DNA of 31,226 nucleotides, taken from positions 1 through 31,226 of the IMG/VR virus record IMGVR_UViG_3300042691_010634; one strand, given 5' to 3'. Of the stretch, positions 1 to 7,600 are shown one piece after another; the first letter of the stretch is position 1; each line of letters starts with the position of its first letter. The notes under the pieces are model-generated. The model searched no databases. It had not been told where the DNA came from and saw only the letters and a program-made list of their open reading frames with translations. The stretch comes from a virus. A program made the translations under genes and the position numbers.

Positions 1-3000
1 GGCAGCAGCTTCTTCAGCGCGGCCGGGACGATCTTGTCGTAGAAGGAGCGCATGCCGGCGCCGCCCACTTTCAGCCCGTCGCCAGCGATGCCTCGGAACC
101 CTTCCTCGTCAGGTTCCTGTTGCATGAGCTTCTCGGCGATCTCTTTCCCGATGTAGTTCTCGATCTCCTTTGGGGGAACGTCGTCCTTCTCCAGCACGGG
201 GCGCGTGGAGGTGTTGATCGTTTCCCCGGGCTCAGTGGCAATCAGCGTTCCACGCCCGACCCCGTCCTGCATGTAGTAAACGCCACCGACCGCGCGGCTC
301 AGACTGTATCGATCGGCAGACTGCTCGCCCGTCACGAACGCGACACGGTCGTGACCTTCCTGCACAGCCATCGTGATGATGCGCTTGAGCGCGAGATTCA
401 CCCACGAGTCGGTCTTCTCGACGAAGGGGGCGCGGGGGGTAGTGCCCCTGCCGTGCGCGTTCCCCGTGCCGGCCCGGCCGGCGGGCGGCTCGCCGAGCTG
501 GCGCAGGATTTCGTTTTCGCGCGCGCGCAGTCGCTCGCCCTCTTGCGCCCCGTCGCGGCCAGCCGGAAGCGCGCGGAGCTGCTGCTTGATTTGCTTCAGC
601 TCTTCGCTCAGCTGCTCTTTGGTGCGCTTGGGCGGGATGAACCCATTCTTCCTTCCATCCTGCGCCCAGTCGGACTGGATCTCCTCGACGAACAGCACGC
701 GCTTGCCATCGGCATCCGCGCGTTCGTTCATGCGGATGTGAGCAAGGACGTTGGGGTCATCCCAATGCGGCGACTTATAAGTTCCGGGTCCGCCGCCGCG
801 AATTGGGGCCGCTATGAATTGGGCGCGCTGCGCCTCGCCCATGCGATCCCAGACTGCCGGGTCGATCAGGGAGCGGGCATATTTTTCTTTGTCGATGGGC
901 AGCGTCAGCAGCACTTCTCGGTACTTGTCGCCGCCCGGAAGGGTGTAGCTGGAATACTTGGCGGGGTTCCCGACGCTTTCGATGGCGCGCCGCACATCGT
1001 CGCGGCCTTCTTTCGCTGCGGCATCATCAATCTCGTCCCACGACTGGCCGGCATGGATTGCGCGAGCCGTCTCGGTGTCTCGGTTTTCGAAAGACCAATC
1101 GTCCAGCCATTCATCGAGTTCGCGGCCGCTCTCGAATCCGCCACCGAGCTGCGTCTCGCGGATCTGCACGCCGCCCCGCTTCAGGTACTCGACGAGCTGG
1201 TCGCGCGTCACCTTGCCCTGCTGCAGGTCGAGCCACTCGCTGATGCCAGACCACTCGACCTCGTCGCCCTTCACCTTGCCCTGCGCGATGAGCCCCTTCA
1301 GCACGCCCTTCCACCCGTCGACCGGCGCGGCCTTCATCGGCACGTTGTTCGCGAACTGCTCTTCGAGCGCGGAGTACATGCCGAGCTTGTTGATGCGGCG
1401 GGAGAAGCGGGTGTCGCTATCGCCGACGCGACCCTCGGTCCACGTCCACTCGGGCATCAGGCCGGTCTTCTGCTCAGAGAATACCGTGCCCTCGACCTTC
1501 GCCGTGCGATTCGTGTCGCCGTGTGGGCCGTAGTTCAGCCAACTATTCTGGCCGCGCGTTTCGCTGGTGATGGCGCCGACAGCGGAGCCGGTGAACAGGC
1601 GCACGTGCGACTGCCACGCGTTCTCCTCGCCATGCTCGCGGAAGCCGGCGCCCTCCATGCCGTGGCCGAAGGCGTCGTGCACAGCGCGGAACAGGTCGTT
1701 CGCGAGGACACGCTTCGGCTTGCCATCCAGCGAGCCGTAAGGCCAAGTGATGCCGGTGCCGACCAGCATGGCATTGTCGTCCGGCGCAGCCTCGCCGGTG
1801 CCGAAGCCGTCTTCGGTCGCGTACACGCCCATCGTCTGCGTCTTGCGCAGGTCGCGCATCGCGTTCCACGGGTTGCCGGCGTAGGGATCGTTGGACGCGT
1901 CGTAGAACCAGAACTTGAAACCGGCGCGTTCGAGCGCCCGGTACTGGGCGACCGTCTGGCGAATCAGGTTGTCGTAGGCTTCCTTGACCTTCGGGTCGTT
2001 AGGAGCGTGCGGCATCGCCTCGTAGGCGGCGGCGATGCGCTTGGCGCGGGCGGGATCGACCTGAGCGTATTCAGCCTGCCGCTGCAGGTCGATCCCGTTT
2101 TCTTTGGCGTAGCGCTCTGCTACTTGGACGACTTGGGGGTCTGGTCCGGTCGCGCCCTCAACAACCGGTCCACCTTCAAGCGGCGGATAGCTTCGGCCCG
2201 AATCCCGTCCTCCTCGGTTTCCGACTCGTCGCGAGAGCCGGGTGCCGCTGTCGCCGTCGAGCTTGGCGATGTAGCGGGATCGGATTCCCTCCACACTTTC
2301 CCGCCAACCATCAAGCCGGTCGAGTAGATCGGGTCGTCCTCGGTTGCTGATCTCACGTCGTAGCCCTTCGCGCGCAACCTCTGGCGAATCCCATCCAGCT
2401 CCTGTGATTCCTTTGACATCGTGGTATTCCCCTGTCGATTTGACGTCGTCGGTGACCTTCGTGATTTTACCACTAATGGAACTCGGGAGCGCGTCCAGCG
2501 CGGCTTCGACGGCGGCGTAGAATTTCTTGTAACCCTTGCCGACATTCCCGAAGTCGATGATGAACACGCGCTTGCCGGCCTGCGTGAACCCGGCATTGCC
2601 GAGCTTCGCGCGCAGCGCACGCTCCAGCACTTCGAGGTCGCGCTGCGACGGGGACTTCGCGAACTCCAGCGCAATGCCCTTGTCGGCGTTGGTCGCCTTC
2701 GGGTCCAACTGGAACCACGGCACAGCGTCCTGACTGTGCACGTACAGCGTTGCAATAGCGTAGAGGTCGGCCAGTGAGCGGTCGTAATTGTCGGGCTTCA
2801 GGGCGGCCAGCGTCGCAACCATGTTGCTATTGACCGCGCCCTCAAACGCACCTTTGCCGCGCTCGGTCGAGTAGAGCGGGGCCTGCAGCGCATCCATCAG
2901 CAGGTCTTTCCCGCCCTTCACCGTGACGGCGGCGGCTTCCTTCGTGTAGCGCTCGCGCACGTCGCGCGGTGCATTCACGAGCGCTTCAGCGCCCGGCAGG

Positions 3001-6000
3001 CTGGCGGACGGCACCGCTTCCCACGTGATGTTCTGCTCGGCCCGCTGCAGGTAGGACTGGAAGTCGTACTTCGCATCGAAGTCCGCGTCGGCCCCGTCGT
3101 CCAATCCGGCGGCGCGCGCGTAGGTCCACAGCGCTGCTTGCGCCATACGGGGCTTGAGCTGCGTCTGGTGCTTCGAGTTGTAGGCGCGGGTCACTTCCTG
3201 CGTGATGTAGTTCGCGAAGCGATACTGCGCGTCGGTGAAGTGGTCCGTGGTGTACCCGTACAGGCGCGCCATCCACATGTCCATCGTGGCGGCGTTTTCG
3301 TACTTGTCCGACTTGAAGGTCGCGTCCCACAAATTGCGGTAGAAGTTCAGCACCTTGCGGTTCACGCCCGGGGTGTCGAGCGTCATCTCCTTGTCGGTGA
3401 GCAGGCGCTCCGCTTCGCGCGCGAACACATTCGGGAAGCGGCCGGACTTGACGCGCTCGCCCCGCGCGATCTGGTAAGCGGCCTTGACCGCGAAGGTCGT
3501 GTTGGCACCGACCTGCGCATTCACCGAGAAGCGCGCCATGACGCGCACGATCTTCTCCATCAGCACCTTGTCGTGTTTCGCGAGCCGGCGGATCTCCTCG
3601 CCGCTGCGCTCGTACCACCACGCCGACTCGGGCATCTGCGCGAGCGGGTCTTCCATGTTCTCGATGACCCGGTTCACCAGTGTCTGGATGTCGGCGTCGG
3701 TCTTGATGTTCTGGGGCGCACCGGAAATGTCGCCGTTGCCATTGCGGCGCCACGAGCCGTCGGCAAGCCGGAGGATCTGGTCGTGCCCTAGCCGCTGCGT
3801 GCCGACGCTGCGGGCGAAGCGCGTGTCACCCGGCAGGCCGCGCGCGAAGCGCGAGCCCCGGAAGTCCTGCGTGACGTTGCCGCCCTCTTCGGTGTAGCGC
3901 CGCGCACGGGCCAGCAGGGCGTCGATCTCGTCCTGCGTGATGTGCTTGAAGTATTGCCCCAGCACGGGCGTCCTGCGCAGCGCCTGCGCCACCATGACGC
4001 GCGCACGGGGCATCACGCCGGCGGGGTCGCGCGCGCCGCGCTCGGCGGTGCGGGCGATGTACTCCTCGGCCGCCTCGCGCGCGTCAGTAAACTCATTTTC
4101 CCGCAGGTTGAGCTTGCCAGCGCGCCCTGCCGCGACAACGTCGTCGAGCAGCTTGTCGAACGCGCGCCTGCCCTCGGGGGAGTTCGCGATGTCGAACAGC
4201 CCGCGAAGCCCGGCGTGAGCGACCTGCTCGTGGAAGTAGGTGCGCGCGGCCTTGACGGGGTTCGGCAGCTCGTCGGCGACCATGTACACGGTGCCGTTGT
4301 CGTACACGCCGGCCACGCCTTCGGCGCTTTCCGCCTCCATTTTCGCGCGGATGTGCGCGGGGAGTTCGCTGGAGGTCGCCACGACCCGGACGGGGGCGGC
4401 ACCTTTGAGCGAGGAGGTCAGCCCCTCAAAGGCTTGTTGAAGCCGACCCACGTCCGGGCCACGGCGGACGGGTGCGCCCTGCTGATTCGGCACGGCGCGC
4501 GAGAGGCGCGTCCCGTCCGGGGCGGGCAGGGCTTCGATTTGTTCGGCCGGCTCGAATGCCGCCTCGATGCCGTCGGCGGCCGGCTGCGGCCGCAAGTCTG
4601 GCGTCAGCGCGTCGCGGCGCATCGCCATTGCGCCCTCGACGTTGCCGGTGCGCTCAGCTGCAGCGGCACGCTGTTCGAGTTGCTGCTGCATGGCAGGGGT
4701 CGCGGCCACGCCGCGCGAGTCGACAGGCATTGCCGGCGGCGGCAGCGCGAGCGTCCCCTCCTGCGGCGGCGGCGCCAGCTCGATCTCTTCGAGCAGGCTG
4801 CCGATGTCCTCGACCTTCGTGCCCTTCTTCGGCGGGGCTGGCGGGAACGGCTCATTCAGCCGCGCCTCGGGCGCAGGGAGCGCTTCTATTTCCTCGACCG
4901 GCACATTCTCGTCGACCTGCGTCTGCGCGCGCTGCGCGCGTTCCTGCGCCTCGCGCATGCGCACGACCATGTCGACCAGCTGGTCATTCAGCCGCACCGG
5001 TGCCGGCGGTTCCTGCGTCGGCGGGATCTCCACTTCGTCGAGCATGGTCGGCTCAACCGCCACGCCCGGCGACGGGCTCGTGCCGGTGCGCTGGAACAGG
5101 TCGGCAATCTGGTCGTAGCCGCCGCGCAGGCGTTCGTTGCCGGCGGCGATCGCGGCGGGGGCAATCTGCGTCGGGTCGGCCTGCTGCTCGTAGGCGGGGG
5201 CGAGCGCCTCGACCGCGCGCAGGATGTCGAGCTTCTGCTGGTCAGTTGGGCCGGGCGGCTGGTTCGGGCCCGGCTGCGTGCCCTGCACGGCGCCGGAGAC
5301 GCCGCCCAGTGGGCCGCCGTAGCCAGCCCCTGCCACTGCCCCTGCCAGTGCCCGATCGCCCGCCTCGCGCCACGAGAGCTTGTCCTGCGGGGTCGTCGTC
5401 AGATATTCGAGCGCTTCCTGCGGGGCTTCGGTGAGCCCTTCGCGCGTGCCGGCGGTGAGTGCGCCGACGGCCCCGCCCTTCAGTGCGCCCATGCCTGCGG
5501 TGCCGGGGTTCAAGATCCCCATCGCACCGATCCGCTCCAGCGCGGAAACAGCGGCCGCCGTCGGCACAGCCATCGAGAGGTCGGTCGCGGAGACTTCGGA
5601 TCGCCCGTGCGCCGTTGCGCGGTCACGCGCCAGCTCGCCGCTGCGCATCGTCATGTAGGTCGGCAGGCCGGCGGGCGACGCCGCCATGAACATGTCGGGG
5701 ATGGAAACGATGCCCTGCTCGGCAGAGAATTTGCCGACCTCGGCCAGCGTGTCGACGATCCCCTCGGCGCTCTTGACTTTCTCCCACGTGCCCTGCGGCA
5801 CATAGCCCGCATTGTTCGCGCGTAGCGTCTTGGCAAGGTTGCCCGCGACGGACGGGGCCTGACGGTACTCGTCGCCGGTGACGAAGCGCAGCCCCTGATC
5901 GTCGTAGACCACGCCGGCCTGCGCCCAGTCGGGCAGCGCCTCGGCAATGCCGACGCCCGCGTCGATCAGGCCGCCCATCAGGTCCGCGCCACGCTCTGCC

Positions 6001-6179
6001 ATGCCGCGCGCAGCGTTCGCGAAGAAACCCGGCTGCGACTGCGGTTCCACCACCTTGAAGCCCGGCGGGGGCGGCGGCAGCTCAATAGGCTTGATGGGCG
6101 ACAGCGGACCTTCGGCCTGCGCCGGCTGCGCGGCCTGCCCTACAACACGAAAGCCCGGGGGAGGCGGCGGCAGCGTCAT
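1..6179 (-). CDS. Giant multidomain polyvalent (LPD-type) phage protein, 3' end outside the window
   Basis: An uninterrupted frame of 2,059 codons starts at ATG 6179, overlapping the previous stop as ATGA, and runs off the left edge. Residues 1-44 carry two LPPPPPGF[R/K]VV motifs. About 150-297 is an Ala/Gly-rich hydrophobic stretch and 300-560 is Pro/Gln-rich linker. About 580-775 contains HEQVAH (H650, E651, H655) with E705/E706 downstream, like zincin metallopeptidase domains. About 790-1040 is helical. About 1350-1585 has HDAFGH (1501-1506) followed by a Glu/Asn/Trp-rich conserved-looking block. From 1600 on it resembles the C-terminal region of large polyvalent phage proteins, including EEIQSDW at 1832-1838. 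TR[L/F][S/A]R motifs at 557, 786, 1313 and 1590 separate the blocks. Families of this kind are thought to be packaged and delivered with phage DNA and to act in the host. Its place after the virion-internal genes agrees, but delivery is inference. The overall family is fairly sure; individual activities are not. Confidence 0.8.
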   Translation of the reverse strand, partial: MTLPPPPPGFRVVGQAAQPAQAEGPLSPIKPIELPPPPPGFKVVEPQSQPGFFANAARGMAERGADLMGGLIDAGVGIAEALPDWAQAGVVYDDQGLRFVTGDEYRQAPSVAGNLAKTLRANNAGYVPQGTWEKVKSAEGIVDTLAEVGKFSAEQGIVSIPDMFMAASPAGLPTYMTMRSGELARDRATAHGRSEVSATDLSMAVPTAAAVSALERIGAMGILNPGTAGMGALKGGAVGALTAGTREGLTEAPQEALEYLTTTPQDKLSWREAGDRALAGAVAGAGYGGPLGGVSGAVQGTQPGPNQPPGPTDQQKLDILRAVEALAPAYEQQADPTQIAPAAIAAGNERLRGGYDQIADLFQRTGTSPSPGVAVEPTMLDEVEIPPTQEPPAPVRLNDQLVDMVVRMREAQERAQRAQTQVDENVPVEEIEALPAPEARLNEPFPPAPPKKGTKVEDIGSLLEEIELAPPPQEGTLALPPPAMPVDSRGVAATPAMQQQLEQRAAAAERTGNVEGAMAMRRDALTPDLRPQPAADGIEAAFEPAEQIEALPAPDGTRLSRAVPNQQGAPVRRGPDVGRLQQAFEGLTSSLKGAAPVRVVATSSELPAHIRAKMEAESAEGVAGVYDNGTVYMVADELPNPVKAARTYFHEQVAHAGLRGLFDIANSPEGRRAFDKLLDDVVAAGRAGKLNLRENEFTDAREAAEEYIARTAERGARDPAGVMPRARVMVAQALRRTPVLGQYFKHITQDEIDALLARARRYTEEGGNVTQDFRGSRFARGLPGDTRFARSVGTQRLGHDQILRLADGSWRRNGNGDISGAPQNIKTDADIQTLVNRVIENMEDPLAQMPESAWWYERSGEEIRRLAKHDKVLMEKIVRVMARFSVNAQVGANTTFAVKAAYQIARGERVKSGRFPNVFAREAERLLTDKEMTLDTPGVNRKVLNFYRNLWDATFKSDKYENAATMDMWMARLYGYTTDHFTDAQYRFANYITQEVTRAYNSKHQTQLKPRMAQAALWTYARAAGLDDGADADFDAKYDFQSYLQRAEQNITWEAVPSASLPGAEALVNAPRDVRERYTKEAAAVTVKGGKDLLMDALQAPLYSTERGKGAFEGAVNSNMVATLAALKPDNYDRSLADLYAIATLYVHSQDAVPWFQLDPKATNADKGIALEFAKSPSQRDLEVLERALRAKLGNAGFTQAGKRVFIIDFGNVGKGYKKFYAAVEAALDALPSSISGKITKVTDDVKSTGEYHDVKGITGAGWDSPEVAREGLRREISNRGRPDLLDRLDGWRESVEGIRSRYIAKLDGDSGTRLSRRVGNRGGRDSGRSYPPLEGGPVVEGATGPDPQVVQVAERYAKENGIDLQRQAEYAQVDPARAKRIAAAYEAMPHAPNDPKVKEAYDNLIRQTVAQYRALERAGFKFWFYDASNDPYAGNPWNAMRDLRKTQTMGVYATEDGFGTGEAAPDDNAMLVGTGITWPYGSLDGKPKRVLANDLFRAVHDAFGHGMEGAGFREHGEENAWQSHVRLFTGSAVGAITSETRGQNSWLNYGPHGDTNRTAKVEGTVFSEQKTGLMPEWTWTEGRVGDSDTRFSRRINKLGMYSALEEQFANNVPMKAAPVDGWKGVLKGLIAQGKVKGDEVEWSGISEWLDLQQGKVTRDQLVEYLKRGGVQIRETQLGGGFESGRELDEWLDDWSFENRDTETARAIHAGQSWDEIDDAAAKEGRDDVRRAIESVGNPAKYSSYTLPGGDKYREVLLTLPIDKEKYARSLIDPAVWDRMGEAQRAQFIAAPIRGGGPGTYKSPHWDDPNVLAHIRMNERADADGKRVLFVEEIQSDWAQDGRKNGFIPPKRTKEQLSEELKQIKQQLRALPAGRDGAQEGERLRARENEILRQLGEPPAGRAGTGNAHGRGTTPRAPFVEKTDSWVNLALKRIITMAVQEGHDRVAFVTGEQSADRYSLSRAVGGVYYMQDGVGRGTLIATEPGETINTSTRPVLEKDDVPPKEIENYIGKEIAEKLMQQEPDEEGFRGIAGDGLKVGGAGMRSFYDKIVPAALKKLL
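2120..2419 (-). CDS. Nested out-of-frame small gene inside the giant gene (99 aa)
   Basis: The ATG at 2419 is preceded by AGGGGA with 8 bases of spacing, and the frame stays open to TAG at 2120. It lies one base downstream of the giant gene's frame (+1). The product begins MSKESQELDGIRQRLRAK, has a mixed hydrophobic core with YDVRSATEDDPIY and MVGGKVWRE, then a Ser/Thr/Pro/Ala linker, then a charged helix rich in Arg, Lys and Glu. By hand count, 76 of 99 codons end in G or C in this frame, against 54 of 99 in the giant frame, whereas a sampled stretch of the giant frame elsewhere had 16 of 19. Only the linker segment shows stronger bias in the giant frame, where it encodes TRLSRR. This suggests real dual coding. 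Function is not recognised. It could still be a chance open frame, since GC-rich DNA makes those common. Confidence 0.5.
   Translation of the reverse strand: MSKESQELDGIRQRLRAKGYDVRSATEDDPIYSTGLMVGGKVWRESDPATSPSSTATAAPGSRDESETEEDGIRAEAIRRLKVDRLLRARPDQTPKSSK
6048..6173 (-). repeat. Duplicated LPPPPPGF[R/K]VV motif at the N-terminus of the giant protein
   Basis: Two copies of an 11-residue motif at residues 3-13 and 34-44 of the giant protein. The DNA of the copies is also similar, so the duplication is likely recent or maintained. Proline-rich short motifs of this kind may serve as docking or packaging tags, which is inference. Confidence 0.6.
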
Positions 6180-7600
6180 TTGGCTGGCACCCACTGCTTC
6201 GTGACCGGGTCGCGATACATGATGTCGCCCTTGTCGTTTGTTGCGATTTCCGCGCCCGGCGGGACTCCGGCTGGCGCGGCGGCTGGCGCGGCGGCTGGCG
6301 CGGTCTGCCCATAGAACTGCCGGCCGTAGTCGGTGAGCTGAAGCATGCCCTTGTCGTCGATGGTCGAGACGGTTTGCTGGTTCGCCACGTCGGCGTAACC
6401 CTTGACCAAACCATTCGCGTCGCCGATCGGCTTCAGCGTCCCGTCGACGACAGCCTGCGCTGCGCGCGGGGGCATGCCCTGAGCAACCAGTTCGTTGTAG
6501 CGCTGCTGCTTGGCCGTGCCGTCCGCGCCGCCACCGCTACCTGCGTCCATCTGCTGCGGGGTCATCGGCGCTCGATAGACCTCCTGCAGCGTGTCGACAA
6601 CGCGATTGCCTGCGCGCTGCTGGAACTGCTGCTGCTGCCACGACGCCTCGCGGTCAATCTGCGGATGCTGACGCAGTGCATAGTCGACCTCGGCGTCGTC
6701 GACGCTGTCGTAGCTTGCGTAGGGTTTGCCGGTGTACGGGTCGACGCCCTTGCCGCCGACCGCCGCTTCGAGCGCCTGCTCGGGCATCACGGTCTGGCCG
6801 TTGATCATGGTCGGGATGTTGGTGGCGCGGCCGCCGTTCAGGCGCGGGTCGGTGACGGTCGCCATGCGGTGCGTGCTGATTGAGCCGTCGTCGTTCTGCA
6901 CGATCGGGCGGCCGTCCGGCAGCGCGCCGATGATGCCCGGCATTTGCGCGGCGGGCTGCTGGCCCAGCTGCACAACGCTGTACCCCGGAGCGACGTCTCG
7001 ATACCGCTCGTTCATCGCCTGCTGCTGGTACAGCCCGGCGTGCGCGTCGCTGGCGCGGCCAGCTGCAGCGCTTGCGCCTGCTGCTGCGTTACGCGAATTC
7101 ACCAGCGCTCCGTGACCCGGGCTCCACGAGTGATTCCCGGTGATCGAGTTGATGACGCCAGACTCGGACTGCTTGAACGGCTCCACGCCCGTGCCCGGTT
7201 GCGCGGCCGCGCCGTACAGATTGACGCCCATCACGTCGCCACGCTGTGCGGCGCCGAGCGCGCCACGCTGCGCCTCGTAGCTGTTCAGGTCGCCGAGCCC
7301 CTGCGTGACATCGCGCAGGTTCGGGTTTTCACTGCTGGCATACAGCGACGCAATCGCGCCCGGGGTAATCCCGGCCGGCAGCGGGATCTCGGACAGCACG
7401 CTCGGCAGGCTCTCGCGCGCGGCGTACTTCTGCTGGTTCAGTCCCGTCTCGCTGTCGTCGCGTGCTGCGCTGGAGCGCGCACTGTCGACGTAGGCGAGGT
7501 CGCGCATCTGGTCGCCGTAGGCGTTGCCGCCGCGCGAAGCGAATGCGCCCATGACGTCGTTGATGCCGCGCGACGCGCCGGCGTAGGTGCGGAACCTCAC
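6176..7600 (-). CDS. Virion-associated protein, candidate internal/ejection protein (474 aa)
   Basis: GTG start at 7600 overlaps the previous stop as GTGA, and the stop overlaps the giant gene as ATGA. The product is rich in Ala, Gly and Gln, with no signal peptide or membrane segment. Around residues 255-305 it has a NIPTMINGQTVMPEQA block followed by a YALRQHP segment; blocks of this form recur in phage virion proteins of unknown role. Near the C-terminus an APAAAPAAAPAG linker is encoded by a tandem 12-base repeat, and the protein ends in PVTKQWVPAK. Its position between two Ala/Gly-rich virion-like proteins and the giant protein suggests a structural or DNA-ejection role. That is inference from context. 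Confidence 0.6.
   Translation of the reverse strand: MRFRTYAGASRGINDVMGAFASRGGNAYGDQMRDLAYVDSARSSAARDDSETGLNQQKYAARESLPSVLSEIPLPAGITPGAIASLYASSENPNLRDVTQGLGDLNSYEAQRGALGAAQRGDVMGVNLYGAAAQPGTGVEPFKQSESGVINSITGNHSWSPGHGALVNSRNAAAGASAAAGRASDAHAGLYQQQAMNERYRDVAPGYSVVQLGQQPAAQMPGIIGALPDGRPIVQNDDGSISTHRMATVTDPRLNGGRATNIPTMINGQTVMPEQALEAAVGGKGVDPYTGKPYASYDSVDDAEVDYALRQHPQIDREASWQQQQFQQRAGNRVVDTLQEVYRAPMTPQQMDAGSGGGADGTAKQQRYNELVAQGMPPRAAQAVVDGTLKPIGDANGLVKGYADVANQQTVSTIDDKGMLQLTDYGRQFYGQTAPAAAPAAAPAGVPPGAEIATNDKGDIMYRDPVTKQWVPAK
6269..6304. repeat. Three tandem 12-base repeats encoding APAA units
   Basis: Units begin at 6269, 6281 and 6293 (ggctggcgcggc, with the last base differing in the third). 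They lie in the 474-residue gene and code for the Ala/Pro linker. Such repeats can expand or contract by slippage, keeping frame. Confidence 0.7.

Follow-up and report, generated by a model that had tools for sequence, protein, structure and literature searches.

The window analysed here, a 31,226-nucleotide stretch of viral DNA (IMG/VR record IMGVR_UViG_3300042691_010634, positions 1 to 31,226), carries a 99-codon ORF that very probably constitutes a true gene for a small protein. It lies in the +1 frame of a polyvalent-type giant gene, where two domains of the latter meet. Comparison with related giant genes makes it highly likely that the ORF is a real gene that is separately initiated, and two different proteins are probably read from this DNA. 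Judging from these relatives, the nested ORF belongs to a family of unannotated overlapping genes that sit where domains of phage polyvalent genes join; the arrangement is seen in more than a hundred related phage sequences.

Layout of the nested ORF and of its host gene

The features of the region are the following.

2120..2419, minus strand: putative nested gene in the +1 frame, 99 codons and a TAG stop (MSKESQELDG...TPKSSK), based on ORF reading, composition and homologues
2428..2433, minus strand: Shine-Dalgarno-like (SD) sequence AGGGGA, 8 nt 5' of the nested ATG (anti-SD duplex energy -6.5 kcal/mol)
3..6194, minus strand: giant polyvalent-type host ORF, 2064 codons, open at the contig end
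2324..2338, minus strand: motif DDPIY of the nested N-half, out of frame with host GRPDL, kept in 9/9 loci that have the upstream domain
2159..2221, minus strand: motif ETEEDGIRAEAIRRLKVDRLL of the nested C-half; relatives that have the downstream domain keep it in the +1 frame
2271..3773, minus strand: DUF7178-like domain of the host (residues 808-1308), overlapping the nested N-half with its C-terminal end
1515..2204, minus strand: host domain starting PLxGxPxxxGATGPD (residues ~1331-1560 of the host), its N-terminal end lying over the nested C-terminal tail
2226..2243, minus strand: TRLSRR, an inter-domain motif of the host frame within the nested gene

The nested ORF extends on the minus strand from an ATG at 2419-2417 to a TAG at 2122-2120. 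It is wholly contained in the host ORF at 3-6194 and its codons start at host codon position 2, which defines the +1 frame; nested positions 1, 2 and 3 correspond to host positions 2, 3 and 1. An earlier, sequence-only reading of the window had described a 99-codon +1 frame that begins at an ATG with AGGGGA eight bases upstream, and this description is exact (ATG at 2419-2417 and AGGGGA at 2428-2433, minus strand). The SD AGGGGA of the window is weaker than that of most relatives.

The host ORF, of 2064 or more codons, may belong to the polyvalent class: its own DUF7178 match is below cut-off, and ART-PolyVal and LPD22 domains score above Pfam cut-offs in homologous giant genes. Its residues 808-1308 have a 39% match to a related locus (L006) and contain the DUF7178-like domain, the match of which is sub-threshold in the window ORF and above the cut-off in the homologous domain of locus L063. 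From about residue 1325 the host frame matches L002, L003, L004 and MW202722.1 at 59-73%. The unconserved stretch of the host frame is only a linker of roughly 20-30 residues, and these comparisons indicate that the host frame is real at the nested site too. Faulty assembly of the window, or a frameshift error in it, was rejected: conservation of the host frame extends to either side, and many independent contigs share the arrangement with the isolate DC33. Note that motifs of the TRLSR type (TRLSR, SRFAR, TRFAR and TRFSR) are repeated at host residues 562, 781, 791, 1318 and 1595, at domain borders of the minus-strand ORF 3-6194. They might mark processing sites or linkers in the giant protein.

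Codon composition changes sharply over the nested ORF. A recount gave 76/99 codons ending in G/C in the nested frame versus 54/99 in the host frame, precisely the figures of the sequence-only reading. The host GC1/2/3 values are 0.70/0.48/0.84 over the entire ORF versus 0.77/0.56/0.54 in the nested region. GC3 minus GC1, followed in 100-codon windows (393 in total), has its gene-wide minimum in the one starting at host residue 1260, the nested ATG being at residue 1259, and a scan with 60-codon windows gave a host GC3 of 0.50-0.62 only for those starting at residues 1221-1321. The bias flips over nested residues 41-60. This is the low-complexity linker where the flip had been proposed; the proposal that the flip falls where the host encodes TRLSRR holds within a few codons, the motif starting at host residue 1318, which is nested residue 60. 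The open length of the +1 frame was rejected as evidence for a gene. The frame is open for another 126 codons upstream of the nested ORF, chance ORFs of 80 codons or longer are many in the window, and 32% of host-synonymous recodings leave all 99 nested codons open. A 99-codon open +1 frame is therefore not unusual here, and the evidence must come from the shift in composition and from homologues.

Conservation of the +1 frame in related giant genes

Searches with the nested protein alone (tblastn and patterns) gave no homologue in phages or viral contigs and the host domains were thus taken as anchors. The downstream anchor was the PLxGxPxxxGATGPD domain (555 IMG/VR stretches), with loci picked without regard to the nested ORF. 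A filter at 93% DNA identity over the compared stretch left 72 non-redundant loci, which are still related to each other. The +1 frame just upstream of the GATGPD domain reads ...DPNxPETE(E/Q/A)DGIRAEALRRLKVRR... in these 72 loci, the motif kept across them being ETE(E/Q/A)-DG--AEALRRL. Its E, T, E and R at -13, -12, -11 and -1 are found in 63, 65, 67 and 69 of the 72 loci, respectively. The complete set of four is present in 60/72 loci, where host-synonymous recoding predicts 0.2; like most selection statistics given here, these numbers come from homologues and not from close relatives of the window ORF. At position -11 the host alternates between Gly and Arg (GGA, CGA or AGA), while 67/72 loci keep Glu in the +1 frame. 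Variability over the motif peaks at host position 1, which is nested position 3 (p1/p3 of 1.35 versus about 0.35-0.5 in the adjacent host domain). The recoding tests and this reversal of the codon-position pattern point to selection on the nested amino acids beyond the constraint of the host frame.

The borders of the ORF are conserved as well. A +1 start is present upstream of the conserved motif in 72/72 loci, being ATG in 62, and SD pairing of -5 kcal/mol or better is found in 60; a start and an SD of its own are also kept at another joint, where the SD is AGGAGGT. In the 72 loci +1 stops are absent from codons -20 to -6 before the conserved host domain, and a +1 TAG at +41, generated by the rare Val codon GTA, is found in 41/66 loci, where the codon usage of the individual genes predicts 8.7. 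The +1 stops, the loss of start or SD and the unreduced synonymous variation that the sequence-only reading had set against its own proposal were looked for in these relatives, and the proposal held: codons -20 to -6 carry no +1 stop, all 72 loci have a start, 60 of them with the SD pairing given above, and the codon-position pattern is reversed. A profile of the nested C-half, searched against viral contigs, retrieved 70 loci, of which 70/70 have the same phase, an open host ORF and a position upstream of the same domain, in host ORFs as short as 450 codons.

Two further ORFs were seen around this domain. The myovirus record MW202675.1 (L162) has a +1 ORF (MDKMILKHEPKRENFQTQEEYEEALAFFKHRVKHL...) upstream of 5001, ahead of a GATGPD domain that is only distantly related (51%). 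A recurrent +2-frame ORF with SD and ATG (MAG.R..V...) lies about 600 nt into the GATGPD domain of L083, L112, L140, L163 and L164. The latter is probably incidental, a product of the strongly conserved ENAWQ region of the host.

The nested N-half was followed through the upstream domain. The host C-terminal motif GR(S/P)D(L/V) reads DDP(I/M)(F/Y) in the +1 frame and DDP[IM] is found in 9/9 upstream-domain loci, window included, always through GGA CGA YCC GAT (summed expectation 0.005). Most relatives with the upstream domain start MGK.T..GL...DDP(M/I)F behind AAGGAG or AGGAG. One and the same N-half is paired with different C-halves, depending on the next host domain. Such varied pairing of halves across loci implies that the nested ORF spans cassette joints, and the linkage suggests that each half travels with the domain it touches, the N-half with the DUF7178-like domain and the C-half with the GATGPD domain. 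This linkage could reflect overlap alone and not interaction.

The overprinting in a spacer of the giant protein, with selection on both frames, that had been proposed from the sequence alone is supported by the +1 motif of the relatives, by their start and SD and by the reversal of codon positions. The comparison adds two refinements: within the spacer the nested frame is usually the better conserved and the host frame passive, and the first and last parts of the nested ORF run over conserved host domains.

Alternative readings of the +1 frame

The +1 frame could simply result from the codons and amino acids that a high-GC host gene uses, with its openness and its likeness between loci both deriving from conservation of the host. 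The abundance of chance ORFs of at least 80 codons in the window and the 32% of synonymous recodings that keep 99 codons open agree with such an origin, and host PL.G.P does account for the end of the motif (RRL...). It accounts poorly for the four-residue motif (60/72 loci versus 0.2), the +1 stop (41/66 versus 8.7) and the DDP (9/9 versus 0.005), for the reversed variability of codon positions, or for the nested proteins of family c described below, which are 55% identical where the Gly-rich host reading is 43% identical. We consider this explanation very unlikely. Programmed frameshifting, a means by which phages join overlapping frames, has equally little probability. The +1 segment would then be an alternative end of the upstream domain, or a -1 shift would lead from the nested start into the downstream domain, and a -1 shift from the nested frame would indeed re-enter the host frame. 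In-phase -1 slippery heptamers are, however, present in 4/72 loci, as in the other phases, and none occurs in the window. Many loci have a +1-frame stop immediately 5' of the nested ATG while the start is always present, and the conserved +1 stop fits an independent ORF.

The conserved element might instead be a signal in cis, the internal SD and start making translation pause or re-initiate at domain borders in aid of co-translational folding, with a peptide of no importance. The repeated presence of SD and ATG at domain joints is in line with this, as is the start lying 14 codons or fewer before the motif in 38/72 loci. Conservation is nevertheless phased by +1 codons, acts at the amino-acid level and continues well beyond the SD, and a selected stop codon 40-60 codons further on is not expected of a pause site, which leaves this possibility hardly probable. 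The phase reversal, the start, the SD and the selected stop argue for a separately initiated protein.

Putative product and other nested families

Ribosomes would initiate internally at the nested ATG on a long late mRNA to yield a separate protein of ~99 amino acids, predicted to be mostly disordered with two short helices, while other ribosomes would translate this stretch in the host frame, as a linker between domains of the giant protein. The structural model of the window protein (pLDDT 72) has two helices and low-confidence stretches; that of a nested protein from the low-GC group has helices only (pLDDT 63). No convincing family was found for the nested proteins in Pfam or PHROGs, where the best isolated match had an E of 0.004, and no match was found among PDB sequences. 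A lysis pair of the Rz/Rz1 type was rejected, as the nested sequence has neither a hydrophobic signal stretch nor a lipobox and matches no lysis family. The linkage of the halves to the domains they touch leads to the expectation that the product would be a small accessory of the polyvalent protein, namely a binding partner, a chaperone or an inhibitor of the flanking domains. As for a toxin-antitoxin or effector-immunity pair, in which the small product would neutralise a toxic domain beside it, the observation made is this linkage to the flanking domains. That it is a partner of these domains and not an unrelated passenger is a tentative proposal, which the linkage makes possible. A bolder and rather doubtful extension is that polyvalent genes are made of two-frame cassettes, each with a frame-0 domain and half a small gene in +1 at its ends, whose joining would give a giant protein together with a mosaic small protein acting on both domains touched. 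If this were true, the mosaic protein might, for instance, keep the flanking domains inactive or packaged until injection and processing.

Other nested +1 families are found at other joints of giant genes, many of these ORFs being preceded by a perfect AGGAGGT. In about 30 loci one such joint has AGGAGGT-5nt-ATG, which opens the ORF of a nested protein M(N/S)...SAQQEQNE...; in a low-GC subgroup at this joint the nested protein has about 129 amino acids and the host third-position change is 0.20 versus 0.33-0.38 in the flanks. In family c, QGAISLAEAWAFQDLV, the nested proteins are better conserved than the Gly-rich host reading (see above). Among 110 non-redundant giant ORFs, 85 +1 ORFs of 45 codons with SD and ATG were counted against 28.1 +/- 6.7 when synonymous codons were permuted. 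The +2-frame candidates with SD and ATG number 12 versus 2.9 in the control and belong mostly to one site in the conserved ENAWQ region of the host. A distinct +1 family, MSAQxxxLExxLxxxVxQGAISLAEAWxxQDL..., is present at L063:1594, L003:3172 and L070:1615, where the host reading is Gly/Ala/Thr-rich. A single giant gene of MW202722.1 (L014:5094-6164) contains three SD-bearing nested +1 ORFs; two of these lie back to back, in the manner of a hidden operon. The isolate Limnohabitans phage DC33 has one nested ORF (PQ492659.1, 27781-27566, complement; MNAQDEHDYRM...). None of the annotated phage records examined, MW202722.1 and DC33 included, annotates a nested gene. Note that DC33 (L160) is filed under Inoviridae despite a 39 kb genome and a giant gene related to podovirus records, and this assignment looks wrong.

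Known cases of out-of-frame nested phage genes that have a ribosome-binding site of their own are Rz1 inside Rz of phage lambda and, in phiX174, gene E within D and gene B within A. The nested ORF resembles them in its full same-strand nesting, in having its own start and SD and in the apparent selection on both frames. It differs in its giant modular polyvalent hosts, in its position at domain joints, in the existence of several unrelated sequence families and in lacking resemblance to known families. The polyvalent proteins of phages and conjugative elements are giant multi-domain ORFs (Iyer et al. 2017, PMC5512222). The host genes described here are alike, the giant genes of the relatives having ART-PolyVal and LPD22, and the words 'overlapping' and 'out-of-frame' have no match in the text of that paper. 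Overprinted viral genes (PMC8227390; PMC6195259) share the situation in which one frame is constrained and the other is free in a disordered linker. They usually consist of a new small gene over an old structured one, whereas here the giant frame appears to run through the small genes, using them as linker. No paper on such nested genes was found in the open-access literature, and one may exist elsewhere.

These genes very probably represent a widespread unannotated coding layer in giant phage genes, with small proteins encoded out of frame in apparent linkers, and they supply a concrete set of candidate phage accessory proteins. The presence of a nested gene in an isolated phage, Limnohabitans phage DC33, makes its expression directly testable. 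The many divergent examples, the clear phase reversal and the mosaic halves offer an unusually clean natural system for the evolution of overlapping genes.
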